A stretch of 64,000 nucleotides of DNA, taken from assembly GCF_004343305.1 (NCBI RefSeq), contig NZ_SMAF01000016.1:1-64000 (forward strand), written 5' to 3'. Numbering within the stretch: position 1 is the first letter of the stretch; each line of letters starts with the position of its first letter. This document shows positions 2,551 through 31,100 of the stretch, piece after piece. Position numbers and translations under genes: made by a program. The notes beneath the pieces are model-generated. The model had not been told where the DNA came from. It saw only the letters and a program-made list of their open reading frames with translations, and ran no database searches. The DNA comes from Pseudofulvimonas gallinarii. Its GTDB lineage: Bacteria > Pseudomonadota > Gammaproteobacteria > Xanthomonadales > UBA2363.

Positions 2551-2793
2551 ATGGTCAAGTCACTGCTTGCTTCGACGCTGCTGACCCTGGCGGTCGCGAC
2601 AGTCGCTGTTTTTCCGGCCTCCACGCACGCTGCGCCACGCATCAACATCGTGACCGAATGCGTGCCATTCCAGCCGTATCCCGGTACAACGCACCAGATG
2701 TGTACGCAGTACATCTACGACGACAACGGTGTACTGGTGAACACGATGGTGTACTACATCGACGAATCGGGGATGTGGTACCTGCTGCCCTGA
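2551..2793 (+). CDS. Small secreted protein, unknown function
   Basis: 80 residues. A Sec signal peptide occupies about residues 1-28 (hydrophobic core LLASTLLTLAVATVAVF, cleavage near STHAA). The mature part, about 52 residues, holds two cysteines (ECVPF and QMCTQ) that could form one disulfide and is rich in Tyr (MVYYIDESGMWYLLP end). The longer frame from 2491 is less likely because it would place residues in front of the signal sequence. No family is recognised. It is isolated from its neighbours by non-coding DNA. Confidence 0.6.
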   Translation: MVKSLLASTLLTLAVATVAVFPASTHAAPRINIVTECVPFQPYPGTTHQMCTQYIYDDNGVLVNTMVYYIDESGMWYLLP

Positions 2794-3070
2794 CGGTCCG
2801 TCTGTCTTCCCGCTGTTGAACACAGGCCAGGCCGGTAGCCTTCCGGGGCACGGCCTGGCTCGCTGGTCGAGACACGATCCGGGGTACCCTGTCGACCACG
2901 CAGCCGGTGTCAGATTGCGCGCTTCCCACGCACCGTCGGGCGCACGGGTCCTACGCCCCGACGAGTGGACGGGGCACGACTGCAGGCAATCCACGGTCAG
3001 TCCCGATGCGCTGAGGGTGGCTTGTTCGGTTCAAAGTCGACTTCCCCGGCAGTCGTGCTGGAGGAAGCGC

Positions 3071-3465
3071 ATGAAGCAGTCACTTGGTCTGGTCTCGCTG
3101 GTCGTTCGCGACTATGACGAAGCCATCGACTTTTCGTCGGCACTCTCGGTTTCACACTCGCCGAGGACGCCGAAGTGCCGGAGCAATCCAAACGCTGGGT
3201 AGTCGTGGCGCCTCCGGGCTCGTCGGAAGCGCGGCTTTTGCTGGCGCGTTCCGACTCGCCGCAACAGTTGCCGCACATCGGCAATCAGGCCGGTGGCCCT
3301 GTGTTCCTGTTCCTTTACACCGACGATTTCTGGCGCGACTACGCGGCCTACCGTTCCAGGGGTGTGCGCTTCGCGCGGGCGCCGCGGGAAGAGCCCTACG
3401 GGACCGTCGCCGTGTTTGTCGATCTCTACGGCAACCTGTGGGACCTGCTGCAGCCGGTAAAGTGA
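3071..3465 (+). pseudogene. VOC (glyoxalase/bleomycin resistance) family protein, single-base frameshift
   Basis: The N-terminal part (KQSLGLVSLVVRDYDEAIDF) is in one frame, and the rest of a typical VOC fold continues in another (ending YGTVAVFVDLYGNLWDLLQP). Restoring one T in the T4 run at 3131-3134 gives FFVGTLGFTL, the expected VOC sequence, and a protein of about 131 residues, the normal family length. VOC proteins are metal-dependent enzymes or binding proteins acting on glyoxals, dioxygen substrates or antibiotics; the substrate cannot be told here. The shift in a homopolymer may be a true mutation or a sequencing error. No stop codons occur otherwise. Confidence 0.85.
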
Positions 3466-3657
3466 CCCATGCACGAGCAGGCCAGCCGTTTTCTGTTCCA
3501 ACCGGCGCTTTCAGGACCGTGCCCGTGCGACTGCCCGTTTCCTCCGGAATCCAGCGACTGACCCTGACAGCTTGGCCCCACCGACATCGGGCGTGCGACG
3601 CCTCGCGGCGTCCCTATCCGGCCAGCCATCCGCAATCCGAACCGGAGGTATCCGTCA

Positions 3658-4041
3658 ATGCGAAAGCAGTACCACTTCCGCCGGGGCGAAGCCGGCCTGA
3701 TGGCCTGGGATGTACATCGGCTCATCGAACTTTGCAGAGGCCTGCCGAAGGAAGACGTGCCCCTGTCCGCCATCCGGGAGCTGGACGAGCCTTATTGGTT
3801 CGGCATGGGACAGGCCGGGCCGACTTGCCGGGAGCTGGTGGAACACATGCGCCTGGTCGAAGCAGCAGACCTGGCCTATCCGGTCATTCTTTCACCCGAT
3901 GGCCAGGTCATGGACGGAATGCATCGAATCGCCAGGGCGCTGCTGCTCGGACACAGCCATGTCCGCGCCTTCCGTCTCAAGGCGATGCCGGAGCCGGACC
4001 ACGTTGGGATCGATCCGGACGAGCTGCCGTATGACCGCTGA
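3658..4041 (+). CDS. ParB/sulfiredoxin-like small protein (conserved hypothetical)
   Basis: 127 residues. GGAGG lies about 10 bases before ATG 3658. The middle contains YPVILSPDGQVMDGMHRIAR, matching the ParB/Srx-fold core in which 'G..DG.HR' forms the nucleotide-binding turn. These stand-alone proteins appear scattered in bacterial genomes without assigned function. It is too short for a chromosome partition protein and has no helix-turn-helix domain, so parB would be a wrong name. No operon partner is seen. Confidence 0.65.
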   Translation: MRKQYHFRRGEAGLMAWDVHRLIELCRGLPKEDVPLSAIRELDEPYWFGMGQAGPTCRELVEHMRLVEAADLAYPVILSPDGQVMDGMHRIARALLLGHSHVRAFRLKAMPEPDHVGIDPDELPYDR

Positions 4042-22196: not shown

Positions 22197-25457
<3,261 letters not shown>

Positions 25458-25467
25458 GCATTCCCCG

Positions 25468-25499
25468 ACCGCGGGCGCCTGTCGCCCGCGGTTCTTTTT
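25468..25499 (+). terminator. Rho-independent terminator of the S41 peptidase gene
   Basis: A perfect 10-bp stem, ACCGCGGGCG against CGCCCGCGGT, loop CCTGT, then TTCTTTTT. It separates the peptidase from the ABC exporter operon. Confidence 0.9.
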
Positions 25500-25571
25500 G
25501 CGGCTCAGCAGGCATGCGGTCGCGCTCGTGCATACTCGCCAACCTTGTGACGTGATGCCGGTGTGACCCCG

Positions 25572-27464
25572 ATGCGCCTGTTCTCCTTCTTCGAGCGGCT
25601 GGTCGATCCGTATCCGCCGGCCCCGCCGGTGGTGCCGCCGCGCGGTTTCCTGCCGTTCGTGATGCATTACTCGCGGCCGATGCTGCCGCTTCTGGTCGTG
25701 ATCGCGGTGCTGACCGCGATGGTCTCGGTGGTCGAAATCGCCTTCTTCGATTTCATGGGCAGCCTCGTCGACTGGCTTGGCGCCACGGATCGCGAGTCGA
25801 TGTGGGACCAGCACGGCCATCGCTTGCTGCTGATGGCGGCGCTGGTGGTGCTCGGCCACCCGCTGCTGGTGTTCACGCATTCGCTGCTGCTGCACCAGGG
25901 CCTGTTCGGCAACTACCCGATGCGCATCCGCTGGCTGGCGCACCGGCACCTGCTCGGCCAGAGCCTGGGCTTTTTCCAGGACGAGTTCGCCGGACGCGTC
26001 GGTGCCAAGGTGATGCAGAGCGCGCTGGCGATCCGCGAAACCGTCATCAAGCTGCTTGATGTCTTCGTCTACGTCGCCGTCTATTTCATCGGCACCGCGG
26101 TGCTCGTCGGTCGCGCCGACGGCTGGATGGTCCTGCCGCTGCTGGGCTGGCTGGCCGGCTACATCACGATCCTGGCCGTGTTCGTGCCGCGCCTGCAGCG
26201 CATCGGTGCCGCGCAGGCCGATGCGCGCGCCGAAATGACCGGCCGCATCGTCGACAGTTACACCAACATCCAGACCGTCAAGCTGTTCGCCCACAGCCGC
26301 CGCGAGGAAGCCTACGCGCGTGACGCGATGCAGGGATTCATGGACACCGTGCACCGGCAGATGCGCATGGTCACCTGGTTGAACCTGTGCCTGCATTCTC
26401 TCAACGGCCTGCTGCTGGGCGGCATCGGTGCACTGGCGATCTTCGCCTGGCAGGCCGGTTCGACGTCGCTGGGCGCCGTCGCGGTGGCGATTGCGCTGGT
26501 GCTGCGCATCCGCGGCATGTCGGAGTGGATCCTGTGGGAAGTGGCCGGCCTGTTCGAGAACATCGGCACCGTGCAGGACGGCATGAATACGCTGACCCAG
26601 CCGCCGGCCGTCGTCGACGTGCCCGGCGCACCCGCACTCGCCGTCAGCCGCGGCGGCATCCGCTTCGAGGCGGTGAAGTTCCATTACGGCGAGCGCGTGC
26701 AGGTTTTCGACGGACTGGACCTGCACATCCAGCCCGGCGAGAAGGTCGGCATCGTCGGCCGCTCCGGTGCCGGCAAGTCGACGCTGGTGAACCTGCTGTT
26801 GCGTTTCTACGACGTCAACGGCGGGCGCATCCTGATCGACGGCCAGGACATCGCCACGGTCAGCCAGGAATCGCTGCGGCAGGCGATCGGCATGGTCACG
26901 CAGGATACCTCGCTGCTGCACCGCTCGATCCGGGACAACATCGCCTACGGCCGACCCGATGCCGACCAGGCGGCGGTCGAGCGTGCCGCCCGCCAGGCCC
27001 ATGCCGATGCCTTCATCCCGGATCTGGTCGATGCCAAGGGCCGGCGTGGCCATGACGCCCATGTCGGCGAGCGCGGCGTCAAGCTCAGCGGCGGCCAGCG
27101 CCAGCGCATCGCGATTGCGCGCGTACTGCTGAAAGATGCGCCGATCCTCGTGCTCGACGAGGCGACCTCGGCGCTGGATTCGGAAGTGGAGGCGGCGATC
27201 CAGGAGCAGCTGTACACGCTGATGGAAGGCAAGACGGTCATCGCCATCGCGCATCGCCTGTCCACCATCGCGGTGCTGGACCGCCTGGTCGTGATGGACG
27301 GGGGCCGCATCGTCGAATCCGGCAGCCACGAGGAACTGCTGCGTGCCAATGGCCTGTATGCGGCGCTGTGGCGTCGCCAGTCCGGCGGCTTCCTCGGCGT
27401 CGATCCGGAAGCCCCTCCGGCGCAAGCGCAGGACAGCGTGCAGGCGGGACCGGCCGTGCCGTGA
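25572..27464 (+). CDS. ABC exporter, fused membrane and ATPase domains (MsbA-type)
   Basis: 630 residues; GTG 25563 is an alternative start three codons earlier. Six transmembrane helices span about residues 30-330. The ATPase has Walker A GRSGAGKSTL near 396, signature KLSGGQRQRIAIAR near 504, Walker B ILVLDEATSALD near 524, and switch His in IAIAHRLS. Type IV exporters act as homodimers moving lipids, drugs or peptides out. It has no C39 leader-peptidase domain. The stop overlaps the GNAT start by four bases (GTGA), and the borosin-like genes follow in the same direction; it could export their product, but close relatives may occur without those genes. Confidence 0.93.
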   Translation: MRLFSFFERLVDPYPPAPPVVPPRGFLPFVMHYSRPMLPLLVVIAVLTAMVSVVEIAFFDFMGSLVDWLGATDRESMWDQHGHRLLLMAALVVLGHPLLVFTHSLLLHQGLFGNYPMRIRWLAHRHLLGQSLGFFQDEFAGRVGAKVMQSALAIRETVIKLLDVFVYVAVYFIGTAVLVGRADGWMVLPLLGWLAGYITILAVFVPRLQRIGAAQADARAEMTGRIVDSYTNIQTVKLFAHSRREEAYARDAMQGFMDTVHRQMRMVTWLNLCLHSLNGLLLGGIGALAIFAWQAGSTSLGAVAVAIALVLRIRGMSEWILWEVAGLFENIGTVQDGMNTLTQPPAVVDVPGAPALAVSRGGIRFEAVKFHYGERVQVFDGLDLHIQPGEKVGIVGRSGAGKSTLVNLLLRFYDVNGGRILIDGQDIATVSQESLRQAIGMVTQDTSLLHRSIRDNIAYGRPDADQAAVERAARQAHADAFIPDLVDAKGRRGHDAHVGERGVKLSGGQRQRIAIARVLLKDAPILVLDEATSALDSEVEAAIQEQLYTLMEGKTVIAIAHRLSTIAVLDRLVVMDGGRIVESGSHEELLRANGLYAALWRRQSGGFLGVDPEAPPAQAQDSVQAGPAVP

Positions 27465-28000
27465 AGTCGCCGGTCCTGTCAACGGGTCCATTGCGCCTGC
27501 GGGCGCTGGGGAGACGTGACCGGCGCTTCTATGCGCGCATCTACGCCGACCTGGCCTTGATGTCCCGTGTCGGTCCGCCCCTCGACCGGCGTGCCGGCCT
27601 GCGCAGCGCCGACGCCCTGCTCGCGTCCATGCACGGGCCCGCGCCGCGCGCGCATTGCTGGACCATCCTGCTGGGTCCGGCGCGACGGCGTATCGGCCTC
27701 GTCGGCTGGCGCGTGCAGGCGGCGGACATCGAACTGGGCGCAATGCTGTTGCCCGCGTGGCAGGGACAGGGATGGGCGGTCGCCGCATTGCGTCGCGTCT
27801 GCGCCGAGCTCATCGAAAACCAGGGCGCCCCACGCCTTTTGATGCGTTATCGTCCGGGACATGAAGCCGCCGCATCGGTATGCCGGCGATTGCGATTCAC
27901 GGAGCGGCCGGAGTTGACGGACGAAGCAGGTCGCCGCGTCTGGACTTTGAGTGCGCAGGCATGGAGGGGCGCCACTTCGTCAGCCGATGAAGTATCGTAA
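27461..28000 (+). CDS. GNAT-family N-acetyltransferase
   Basis: 179 residues starting at GTG 27461, overlapping the exporter stop (GTGA), so translation is coupled. The order fits the RimJ/RimL-like branch: LRLRALGRRDRRFYARIYAD, then IGLVGWRVQAADIELGAMLL, then the acetyl-CoA loop LPAWQGQGWAVAALRRV, and ARPEL-like end strand LRFTERPELTDE. Substrate unknown. Its stop is 24 bp before the methyltransferase start, so it belongs to the same transcript and could N-acetylate the peptide product or its precursor, or act on something unrelated. Confidence 0.8.
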   Translation: MKSPVLSTGPLRLRALGRRDRRFYARIYADLALMSRVGPPLDRRAGLRSADALLASMHGPAPRAHCWTILLGPARRRIGLVGWRVQAADIELGAMLLPAWQGQGWAVAALRRVCAELIENQGAPRLLMRYRPGHEAAASVCRRLRFTERPELTDEAGRRVWTLSAQAWRGATSSADEVS

Positions 28001-28024: not shown

Positions 28025-28831
28025 ATGGCCGCCAACGGCAGACTGGCCTGCGTGGGACTCGGCATGTTGCTGGGTGGCCACCTGAGCCCGCGCGCCGAGG
28101 CCGAAATCCGGTCAGCCGACGTCGTGTTCGCCGCCGTGTCGGATCCGCTGGTCGAGCTGTGGGTCGAGGACATGCACGCCGACGTGCGCAGCCTTCAGTC
28201 CTGTTATGCCGAAGGCAAATCGCGCCACCGCACCTACGACGAGATGCTTGCCCTGATCATGGCCGAACTGCGTGCCGGCCGACGTGTGTGCGGCGTCTTC
28301 TATGGCCATCCCGGCGTGTTCGCACGCATGCCGCACCGCGCTGTCGCGCTGGCCCGCGCGGAAGGCTTCGCCGCCGTGATGGAGCCGGGAATTTCCGCCG
28401 AGGACTGCCTGTACGCGGACCTCGGCATCGATCCAGGCGAGGTCGGTTGCGCCCATTTCGAAGCCAGCCAGTTCCTGCTCTACCGCCGCAGGATCGACCC
28501 GTCCGCCTACCTGGTGCTGTGGCAGGTCTCGCTTGCGGGCGACCGCAGCCATCGGCGCTATGCCAGCGGCAGGGCGCACCGCGCGTTGCTGGTGGACCGG
28601 TTGTCGGAGGATTATCCGCTGGACCACGCGGTCACCCTCTACGAAGCGGCCACGCTGGCCATCCAGCGGCCGCGCGCCGACGTGCTGGCGCTACGTGACC
28701 TGCCCGACGCTGAATTGCGCTTGCAATCGACCCTGGTCTTGCCGCCCGTGCATGCACTGCGGCCCGATGCAGGCATGATGTCCCGCATTGCCAGGCTGGA
28801 TGAAGTCGATCCGGCGCCGGCGGCGGGTTGA
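28025..28831 (+). CDS. Borosin-type peptide backbone alpha-N-methyltransferase (split form)
   Basis: 268 residues, SAM-dependent methylase of the tetrapyrrole-methylase fold. N-terminal VGLGMLLGGHLSP replaces the GxGxG SAM motif. Blocks shared with the fungal borosin enzyme OphMA are VFAAVSDPLVELWVEDM, CYAEGKSRHRTYDEM (with Tyr61, Arg67 and Tyr71 as candidate active-site residues), GVFYGHPGVFARMPHRAVAL, MEPGISAEDCLYADLG and FEASQFLLYRRRIDPS. It ends near residue 268 with no fused leader or core, so it is the split type, as in Shewanella SonM. ATG 28025 has GGGAGA five bases upstream. The cognate precursor follows after 37 bp. Role: iterative methylation of backbone amides of the precursor core. 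Confidence 0.9.
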   Translation: MAANGRLACVGLGMLLGGHLSPRAEAEIRSADVVFAAVSDPLVELWVEDMHADVRSLQSCYAEGKSRHRTYDEMLALIMAELRAGRRVCGVFYGHPGVFARMPHRAVALARAEGFAAVMEPGISAEDCLYADLGIDPGEVGCAHFEASQFLLYRRRIDPSAYLVLWQVSLAGDRSHRRYASGRAHRALLVDRLSEDYPLDHAVTLYEAATLAIQRPRADVLALRDLPDAELRLQSTLVLPPVHALRPDAGMMSRIARLDEVDPAPAAG

Positions 28832-28868
28832 TGTGTCGTGTCACCCCTATCAAACGAAGGAGTACCAG

Positions 28869-29135
28869 ATGTCGAATGTCATCCGTTTACTTGAGTCGCT
28901 GGGTCGCGAAATCGGTGCCGGAGCGGTGGATTCCGCGGAATTCGCGAGCCGGATGGAAACCCTGGACCTGGCCCCCGCGTTGCGCGCGGCGTTGATGGGG
29001 GGCGACGTCGCCGCACTGTCGGCGGCCCTCGGCGGACGCACGACCATGATGATGGTGCTCGCTCCCGCCGAGCCCGATGGCGAGCAGCCGCAGGAGGACG
29101 AGAAGCCCGACAGCGAGGTGCGCGCTGCCGCCTGA
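28869..29135 (+). CDS. Split-borosin precursor peptide (leader/binding domain plus core)
   Basis: 88 residues; AAGGAG lies seven bases before ATG 28869. Residues 1-55 match the helical borosin-binding domain layout seen in SonA: IRLLESLGREIGAG, a middle helix with EFASRMETLDLAPALR, then ALMGGDVAALSAALG. Residues 57-88 are the likely core, RTTMMMVLAPAEPDG followed by an acidic Pro/Glu/Asp tail ending SEVRAAA. The hydrophobic MMMVLAP segment (60-66) is where backbone N-methylation is expected. No Cys, Ser or Trp is present in the core, so other RiPP chemistries are unlikely. No second copy was found nearby. Function of the product unknown. Confidence 0.85.
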   Translation: MSNVIRLLESLGREIGAGAVDSAEFASRMETLDLAPALRAALMGGDVAALSAALGGRTTMMMVLAPAEPDGEQPQEDEKPDSEVRAAA

Positions 29136-29183: not shown

Positions 29184-31100
29184 ATGAGGCATCGTGATCT
29201 TGCCGGTCGGCTCCTGCTGGAGCCGACGCGTCCTCCCGACGAGGCAGCCGGACCGGCCAGCACACAGGTTTGCCTGCGCTGGCCGGTTCCGCCGCGCGGC
29301 CCGTTGCTGACCCGGCTGCTGGCACTGCTGCTGGGTCTTTTCATTCCGGCCGCGCTGTCCGTTGCGGTCGTGCCGGATGAGTTCGATGCACTGCTGCGTC
29401 GTGCCGACGACGTCAAGTCGGCAGACCCCCGGGCGTTCCGTTCAATGCTTGAACGGATGGAACAGCTGACGTCCGCGGCTTCGCAGGTCCAGCTGGAGCA
29501 GCTGCGTTACCTGCAGATATACCGCATGTCGCTGGACGGACAGTTCCCGCAGGCGATTGCCGCGCTGCGGGAGCTGGCGACGGAAGCGACCGACGTATCG
29601 ACGCGTTTCCGCGCCACGGCATTCCTCGCCAACAACTACGCGGGGACCCGGGATTTCGCGGCCGGGCTGGATGCATTGAACCAGGCACTGGCGATGCTTC
29701 CCGCCATCGAGGACACCAACATCCGGCACCAGGGTTACCTCGCCGCTGCCATCCTCTACAACCAGGCCGGCCAGTACGACCTTGCGCTTCGCTACGTCGA
29801 TATCACCCTCGGCGAGCCGGCAAGCGGACGCAGCCGCTGCATTGCCGGCATCATGCGGCTGGAAGCCCTGTTCGCCCTGGGCCGGCTGCCCTCGGATGCC
29901 CGTGGCCTGGACGGCAGTGTCGAGGAGTGCGAGCGGCATGGCGAACAGCTGCTCTCGGAATTCGTCCGCGGCTTCCAGGCACGCGTCCTGTTCAACGGCG
30001 GCGATGCGGCCGCTGCGGCGCGGCTGCTCGAGAGCCGCCTAGACGCCGTCGCAAGCTCCGAATACCCGCGACTCATTGCCGAACACCACGCCTTGCTGGC
30101 GGAAGCCCGGCTGGCGCTCGGCGATGCCGCAGCCGCGCGGCGGCACGCCCAGCGCGCGATCGACGCCAGCGAGGGCGTGGAATTTTCGTTGCCGCTGGTG
30201 ACCGCCTTTCGCGTCCTCTCGCGTGAGGCGGAGATGCGCGGGGATGCCGCCAGTGCGCTGGCGCACCACCGGCGCTGGGCCGCCGTCGATCGCGCCTATA
30301 TCGACGATATCAAGGCGCGTGAACTGGCCTACCAGCTGGCCCAGCACGACAGCCTGCAGAAGACGCATACCATCGAGCTGCTCAACCAGCGCAACAAGCT
30401 GCTGGAGCTTGAAAGCGAGGTCAACAAGCAGGCCGCCAACAACAACCGGCTGGCGATCGCGATGCTGGTCGTGCTGCTGGCGTCCATCGCGCTGTGGGCC
30501 TACCTCACCAAGCGCGAGCAGTTGCGGTTCCGTCGCCTCGCGCAGACCGACGCGCTGACCGGCATCAGCAACCGCCTCTACTTCAGCGAGCGCGCACCGC
30601 AGATCCTCGAGGAATGCGCGCAACGCGGTCGCCCCGCGGCGCTGGTCATGTTCGACCTGGACGCTTTCAAGTCGATCAACGACCGCCACGGTCACGCCTG
30701 CGGCGACTGGGTGCTGGCCGAGGTGGCCCGCCGAGTGAGTGCGCTGTGCGGGGAGGGCGACCTGTTCGCCCGCCTGGGTGGCGAGGAATTCGCGATCCTC
30801 CGTGCCGGCGCCGACGTGGAAACCGCACTGGTGCTGGCCAACCGCTGCCGCGAGGCCATTTCATCGATCGATACGTCGCTCGCCGGCCCGCGCTTTTCCG
30901 TCAGTGCCAGCTTCGGCGTGGCGATGGCCGCGCCTTCGCCCGGCGGCAGCCTGGATGCGCTGCTGATCCACGCCGACATCGCGCTGTATTGCGCCAAGTC
31001 CGAAGGCCGCAACCGCGTCAGCGTGCATGGCGTGGCGGAGTGCCCGCGCTCGCCGGACGGGACGCCGGCGAACAGCCCGTCACCGCCGGCGAAGGCCTGA
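29184..31100 (+). CDS. Membrane TPR protein with C-terminal GGDEF (diguanylate cyclase)
   Basis: 638 residues. A signal/anchor region (LLTRLLALLLGLFIPAALS) near 38-56 is followed by periplasmic TPR-like helical repeats (about 65-400), a coiled-coil (SLQKTHTIELLNQRNKLLEL), one transmembrane helix (AIAMLVVLLASIALWAYLT, about 423-442) and a cytoplasmic GGDEF domain with active-site GGEEF near 531. The inhibitory I-site RxxD is replaced by GEGD, so product feedback is likely lost. It makes c-di-GMP from two GTP. The first ATG (29184) is 48 bp past the precursor stop and may be co-transcribed; a later start is possible. Confidence 0.88.
   Translation: MRHRDLAGRLLLEPTRPPDEAAGPASTQVCLRWPVPPRGPLLTRLLALLLGLFIPAALSVAVVPDEFDALLRRADDVKSADPRAFRSMLERMEQLTSAASQVQLEQLRYLQIYRMSLDGQFPQAIAALRELATEATDVSTRFRATAFLANNYAGTRDFAAGLDALNQALAMLPAIEDTNIRHQGYLAAAILYNQAGQYDLALRYVDITLGEPASGRSRCIAGIMRLEALFALGRLPSDARGLDGSVEECERHGEQLLSEFVRGFQARVLFNGGDAAAAARLLESRLDAVASSEYPRLIAEHHALLAEARLALGDAAAARRHAQRAIDASEGVEFSLPLVTAFRVLSREAEMRGDAASALAHHRRWAAVDRAYIDDIKARELAYQLAQHDSLQKTHTIELLNQRNKLLELESEVNKQAANNNRLAIAMLVVLLASIALWAYLTKREQLRFRRLAQTDALTGISNRLYFSERAPQILEECAQRGRPAALVMFDLDAFKSINDRHGHACGDWVLAEVARRVSALCGEGDLFARLGGEEFAILRAGADVETALVLANRCREAISSIDTSLAGPRFSVSASFGVAMAAPSPGGSLDALLIHADIALYCAKSEGRNRVSVHGVAECPRSPDGTPANSPSPPAKA

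Follow-up and report, generated by a model that had tools for sequence, protein, structure and literature searches.

A split borosin pair encoded beside a membrane diguanylate cyclase, and its peptide as a candidate ligand of that cyclase

Borosins of types IV to X have been reported in bacteria (PMC11285071 and PMC11395268), and none of type IV has yet been tied to a natural product (PMC8429565). The described system closest to the locus reported here is SonM–SonA of Shewanella oneidensis, a type IV borosin with a discrete enzyme and a discrete precursor, in which the SonM residues Y58, R67 and Y71 matter for catalysis (PMC8429565). In the fungal borosin OphMA, by contrast, the precursor is fused to the enzyme. 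The window (the whole stretch of 64,000 nucleotides that was analysed) resembles the SonM–SonA case, in that enzyme and precursor are encoded separately:

28025..28831, + strand: SonM-type peptide backbone alpha-N-methyltransferase (268 aa; from PF00590, PDB match, catalytic residues and fold)
28869..29135, + strand: borosin precursor peptide (88 aa; family profile matches SonA)
28869..29036, + strand: borosin-binding domain or leader, residues 1-56 (from the profile; five helices in the model of a homologue)
29037..29078, + strand: putative core, residues 57-70, RTTMMMVLAPAEPD (from the sequence and by analogy with SonA)
29079..29132, + strand: acidic C-terminal tail (predicted to be disordered in a homologue)

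The methyltransferase gene starts with an ATG behind a GGGAGA-like ribosome-binding site, and its product matched PF00590 (TP_methylase; Pfam, E 1.2e-21). When the protein was used as query against the PDB, 25 distinct sequences were retrieved, every one of them a borosin methyltransferase, with SonM as the best match (E 5e-66, 44% identity), followed by MroMA, dbOphMA and OphMA. SonM Y58, R67 and Y71 aligned with Y61, R67 and Y71 of the window enzyme, demonstrating that the catalytic Tyr/Arg/Tyr set is retained; the side-clamp loop is three residues shorter than that of SonM. The first-pass annotation had pointed to blocks shared with OphMA and to the lack of a fused core. Indeed, GVFYGHPGVFARMPHRAVAL and MEPGISAEDCLYADLG were both found in the methyltransferase as conserved blocks, and the frame ends 14 residues past the last SonM-aligned position, leaving no room for a core. 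The protein is a discrete enzyme of the SonM/OphMA family, uncoupled from its core, and it is the only one of borosin type among the two PF00590 genes of the source genome. A PHROGs search for a phage origin gave no match.

The precursor gene starts with an ATG after an AAGGAG ribosome-binding site, 37 bp 3' of the methyltransferase, which agrees with the stand-alone 88-residue peptide proposed earlier. The window precursor alone, used as query, found no match in the PDB (SonA included), Pfam, NCBIfam or PHROGs. A family profile built from 48 precursors retrieved SonA from the PDB (E 4.4e-5), the match covering its borosin-binding domain, residues 1-57, so that the SonA-type domain ascribed to the peptide was recovered by this search. 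Members of the family share MSNVI-FLE-LG and a helical leader, after which come a short hydrophobic stretch, in many cases containing Cys, Pro and small residues, and then an acidic tail. The window precursor is longer than SonA (88 versus about 71 aa) and differs from it in its core, MMMVLAP, with the acidic tail; the counterpart of its binding domain in OphMA is a part of the clasp. In analogy to SonA L63 and I65 (PMC8429565), M60-L64, ahead of P66, is predicted as the methylation window.

The pair was modelled with AlphaFold2 by way of L007, a close homologue whose enzyme and precursor lie in a single frame when its TGA is read as Trp. The model showed five leader helices at pLDDT of about 84-94, the same number as in the SonA binding domain, and thus corrected the three short helices assumed in the first-pass annotation. 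The tail was predicted to be disordered (pLDDT about 42-56; pTM 0.58) and took no confident position at the active site, in keeping with the earlier impression that it is not a folded protein. Comparison of the model with SonM and OphMA gave Z values of 32 and 29, respectively, and about 300 residues including the binding domain superposed on OphMA at 4.4-4.7 A. Since PF00590 is common to siroheme and cobalamin enzymes, we considered whether the gene might encode a tetrapyrrole-type methyltransferase of cofactor synthesis next to an unrelated small gene. The NCBIfam cobalamin and siroheme models scored far under their cut-offs, however, siroheme synthase followed as the next family at only Z 17.8 after the borosin enzymes (Z 28-32), and the small gene belongs to the family whose profile matches SonA. 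We therefore rejected a cobalamin or siroheme enzyme identity, and hold this reading of the two genes to be exceedingly improbable. Enzyme family, catalytic residues, a discrete precursor, a SonA-like domain and the SonM fold, features of a split borosin pair that can be tested computationally, were found together. The genes at 28025 and 28869 almost certainly form a working borosin pair, with the chemistry expected from homology, and we assign the pair, as a new member, to the split (type IV) borosins already known.

One genome per species was scanned for relatives, which yielded 80 independent loci encoding enzymes closely related to that of the window (57-69% identity), among them Arenimonas, Lysobacter, Luteimonas, Dyella, Rhodanobacter and Shewanella. 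With a search profile seeded by three precursors from the genus of the window, 77 of the 80 loci were found to have a same-family precursor adjoining the methyltransferase. The lineage is paralogous to that of SonM and separate from it, and Shewanella genomes carry both. Across the order, the enzyme was present in 204 of 398 genomes (E up to 1e-20), so that the pair is nothing unusual in this group. Some single loci (L066, L084, L060, L073, L081 and L058) had several different precursors for one methyltransferase, with five precursors and two cyclases at L066. Two contigs labelled Candidatus Eremiobacteraeota (L056 and L064) carried borosin clusters like those of Dyella and Rhodanobacter, and the L056 precursor was identical to that of L048; the label is probably a binning error.

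The gene that follows the precursor encodes a membrane-bound diguanylate cyclase:

29184..31100, + strand: membrane diguanylate cyclase with signal peptide/TM1, TPR sensor, TM2 and GGEEF domain (from Pfam and hydrophobicity)
29361..30530, + strand: TPR sensor including the second transmembrane helix (predicted fold, a superhelix like the Rap/NprR/AimR receptors)

Its GGDEF domain was identified by PF00990 (E 6.5e-41), along with traces of TPR in Pfam, and the GG(D/E)EF motif is intact, reading GGEEF. The start codon is uncertain; a TTG near 29304 would yield an ordinary signal peptide. There are two hydrophobic segments, one N-terminal and one between sensor and GGDEF domain. Because a single transmembrane helix separates them, the TPR and GGDEF parts should lie on opposite sides of the membrane, with the TPR part in the periplasm. 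Two Cys residues (modelled residues 160 and 190) were invariant in 61 of 61 sensors, which fits a disulfide and an oxidising periplasm. Most homologues retain the RxxD product-inhibition site, but the GGDEF domain of the window (30700-30830) has GEGD at this place, and the window cyclase may therefore lack feedback inhibition.

In 78 of the 80 loci, a co-oriented cyclase gene lay 3' of the precursor; at L032 and L056, the two exceptions, the contig ends too early, and tblastn gave a cyclase match in all 80 (E up to 1e-20); the gap between precursor and cyclase was mostly below 100 bp. The same order of enzyme, precursor and TPR-GGDEF gene was observed for SonM orthologues in three Shewanella genomes. 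At duplicated clusters (L033, L066 and L084), precursor and cyclase were repeated as a unit. We fetched 20 cyclase copies that had no methyltransferase nearby among the matches listed, of which five proved to have one. The other 15 had no methyltransferase in the fetched stretch, but the enzyme was encoded elsewhere in the genome. Directly 5' of these 15 cyclases we found an intact precursor in 12 cases (L086, L088-L093, L095, L098, L099, L101 and L104), a frame-shifted one in L096, and a truncated remnant, read by eye, in L097 and L100. In eight genomes from three genera, cyclase and methyltransferase were fused in one frame of 829-893 aa (TPR, transmembrane helix, GGDEF, methyltransferase), and a SonA-like precursor, about 70 aa long, was located directly 5' in all six fusion loci checked with longer flanks, with a gap of 4 bp where measured. 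Loci of the fusion type were L132, L140-L146 and L148-L153. The genes thus occur in three arrangements, namely enzyme-precursor-cyclase, precursor-cyclase, and precursor followed by the cyclase fused to the enzyme, and precursor plus cyclase is the element common to all three.

In the order-wide count (sensor threshold 1e-15), enzyme and sensor occurred together in 195 of the 398 genomes, the enzyme alone in 9, the sensor alone in 20 and neither in 174, figures that ignore shared descent and whose Fisher value is therefore not to be taken for a probability. Among eight of the nine genomes with enzyme but no sensor match, G310 was of the fusion type, one had an exporter instead of the cyclase, one had a related precursor with no cyclase within the short flank, and the rest had more distant enzymes. 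In six genomes the sensor was detected and the methyltransferase was not, and a search of the short flank for a precursor was negative in five of them.

These arrangements bear on the view that an ordinary N-methylated natural product is made by the pair and secreted to act on other organisms, and that the cyclase only tunes c-di-GMP or biofilm formation and does not bind the peptide. Borosins of known function, the fungal omphalotins, are bioactive products, in line with such a role. A mere regulator, however, would not need the precursor to stay beside cyclase copies that have no adjacent methyltransferase, nor would it need to be fused to the methyltransferase in three genera.

We modelled the sensor with AlphaFold2 (pLDDT 93.6) and compared its fold by Foldseek and VIA-align. 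The top matches were the TPR proteins APPBP2, a reader of peptide degrons, and APC5, neither of them a pheromone receptor. RapF with its peptide came next (Z 24.5 over 313 residues), followed by phage Rap with its pheromone, RapJ with CSF, NprR and AimR, and also by MalT and LGN; the values for RapF, RapJ, phage Rap, NprR and AimR ranged from 19 to 24.5. TPR superhelices look alike regardless of ligand, and the predicted fold accordingly speaks for a peptide-binding superhelix without singling out a pheromone receptor. The RRNPP(A) receptors Rap, NprR and AimR share the overall shape of the sensor model over about 300 residues, and in their systems a small peptide gene adjoins the receptor gene, as in the window. 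They are, however, cytoplasmic receptors of unmodified peptides from Firmicutes (PMC9765709), to which the window sensor is likened by fold alone, whereas the window cyclase is a membrane protein with a periplasmic TPR part, a GGDEF output, a Gram-negative host and a peptide predicted to be backbone-methylated. Due to the signal peptide and the transmembrane helix between TPR and GGDEF, we did not assign the cyclase to RRNPP(A) and propose only a possible likeness in the way it works.

Co-variation was examined by partial Mantel tests on 104 precursor-cyclase pairs. Core distance tracked sensor distance once the distances of GGDEF and leader had been removed (partial r 0.30, p 0.001, a significance that such tests overstate on related sequences), while the value for core against GGDEF, with sensor and leader removed, was -0.06. 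The core-sensor value was 0.22 when ranks and a core of 12 residues were used and fast GGDEF columns served as a further control; it was 0.13 when the Dyella/Rhodanobacter class was excluded and 0.36 inside this class, so that the effects are modest throughout (0.13-0.36). The co-variation backs a pairing of ligand and receptor, as support and not as proof, and it argues against a secreted natural product that the cyclase does not bind.

The leader behaved differently from the core, since its distance tracked GGDEF (partial r 0.32) as well as the sensor (0.27). This would suit a precursor that acts intracellularly, where either the folded leader or the modified protein as a whole would bind the cytoplasmic side of the cyclase with no peptide being released. 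The precursor has no signal peptide, and no protease or exporter is conserved with it, as such a mode of action would lead one to expect. We nevertheless consider it a doubtful explanation, since the cores co-vary with the periplasmic sensor, the most divergent part of the cyclase, and since the one transmembrane helix between sensor and GGDEF domain implies that the core must cross the membrane. The two invariant Cys residues, which suit an oxidising periplasm, point in the same direction. A released peptide that is sensed in the periplasm remains the reading that we prefer.

How the peptide would get there led us to the genes 5' of the methyltransferase:

25563..27464, + strand: MsbA-like ABC transporter (same apparent operon as the enzyme)
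27461..28000, + strand: GNAT acetyltransferase, PF13302 (its GTG start overlaps the stop of the MsbA-like ABC gene)

A terminator-like site lies 5' of the ABC gene and none was seen in the gaps among the ABC, GNAT and enzyme genes, which thus appear to form one operon. The presence of an ABC transporter in this operon is a point in favour of a secreted natural product; it is also a possible exporter for a signal peptide. Further upstream is a tricorn-like protease with a signal peptide (22197-25457), whose gene is closed by a strong terminator-like hairpin (25467-25493). Neither the ABC transporter nor this protease was conserved at related loci, and no dedicated exporter or leader protease conserved with the cluster was found there. 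Because no exporter is conserved, the exit of the peptide from the cytoplasm is the weakest point of the signalling proposal.

Genes similar to the GNAT gene were found near about half of the related loci. A pepsin-family protease (PF00026), as in shewasin-type bacterial pepsins (PMC4814920), was located directly 5' of the cluster at 15 of about 85 related loci, and a GNAT gene was present at 14 of the 15. From these frequencies, neither gene is essential. The pepsin loci (L006, L008, L009, L014, L035, L044, L045, L046, L060, L070, L071, L073, L075, L077 and L083) include eight from Shewanella, and in most cases the pepsin gene is followed by a GNAT gene and then by the borosin genes. A PF00026 search of the window and its source genome gave no match, and control genomes likewise gave none. 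A part of the pepsin in leader removal is a guess; its place beside borosin genes offers a possible context for these bacterial pepsins.

One locus, L130, combines a precursor that holds four core repeats similar to one another (of the kind YFCxVxTPEE; 934-1416), 5' of the methyltransferase, with a frame resembling a C39-peptidase ABC exporter (2614-3792) on its 3' side, and has no cyclase. The cyclase is therefore not obligatory, and at least this member of the group looks, from its genes, as if made for export, which again favours a natural product. Taking this together with the enzyme-free pairs, the fusion and the co-variation, we regard a natural product that the cyclase does not sense as an unlikely explanation for the window pair.

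What we propose instead is a ligand-receptor relation between precursor and cyclase, with the methyltransferase as the maturase of the ligand, because this is the simplest account of the gene order, the enzyme-free pairs, the fusion, the topology, the sensor fold and the co-variation. The helical leader of the precursor would dock onto the methyltransferase dimer, which would work along the hydrophobic core (about M60-L64) from the N to the C terminus and N-methylate backbone amides there. The leader would then be cleaved off, and the N-methylated peptide would enter the periplasm and bind the downstream cyclase at its TPR sensor, whereupon the ligand-bound sensor would alter the cytoplasmic synthesis of c-di-GMP. 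The steps that we infer are methylation, cleavage of the leader, export, binding and the effect on c-di-GMP together with its sign. For the N-methylated peptide as signal or ligand of the downstream cyclase, we see about even chances. The combined explanation, a borosin pair together with a peptide-sensing cyclase, appears to us rather probable.

Part of the association between GGDEF proteins and borosins is probably known already: a 2024 figure of the borosin type scheme has a GGDEF domain in its legend (PMC11395268), where a neighbour or a fusion may be meant, and we do not claim the association as new. A search of the literature in full text brought up no paper that connects modified peptides with cyclase receptors. 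Possibly new are the tests of the precursor-cyclase relation, i.e., the enzyme-free pairs, the co-variation and the sensor fold, and the ligand-receptor proposal itself.

The linkage to the cyclase suggests a use for bacterial peptides that have so far been without a function, and if precursor and cyclase are ligand and receptor, the function of type IV borosins becomes directly testable in a laboratory strain. A wider claim, to which we give slightly less than even chances, is that a backbone-methylated ribosomal peptide serves as a cell-cell or self signal in Gram-negatives, with matched precursor-receptor pairs, and that the split borosins of this large group are c-di-GMP pheromone systems and not antibiotics. 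If the ligand-receptor relation holds, a chemically unusual, protease-resistant peptide would join the known signals, one of the many orphan membrane cyclases would gain a class of ligands, and the spread of the pair over half of the genomes of the order would be accounted for.
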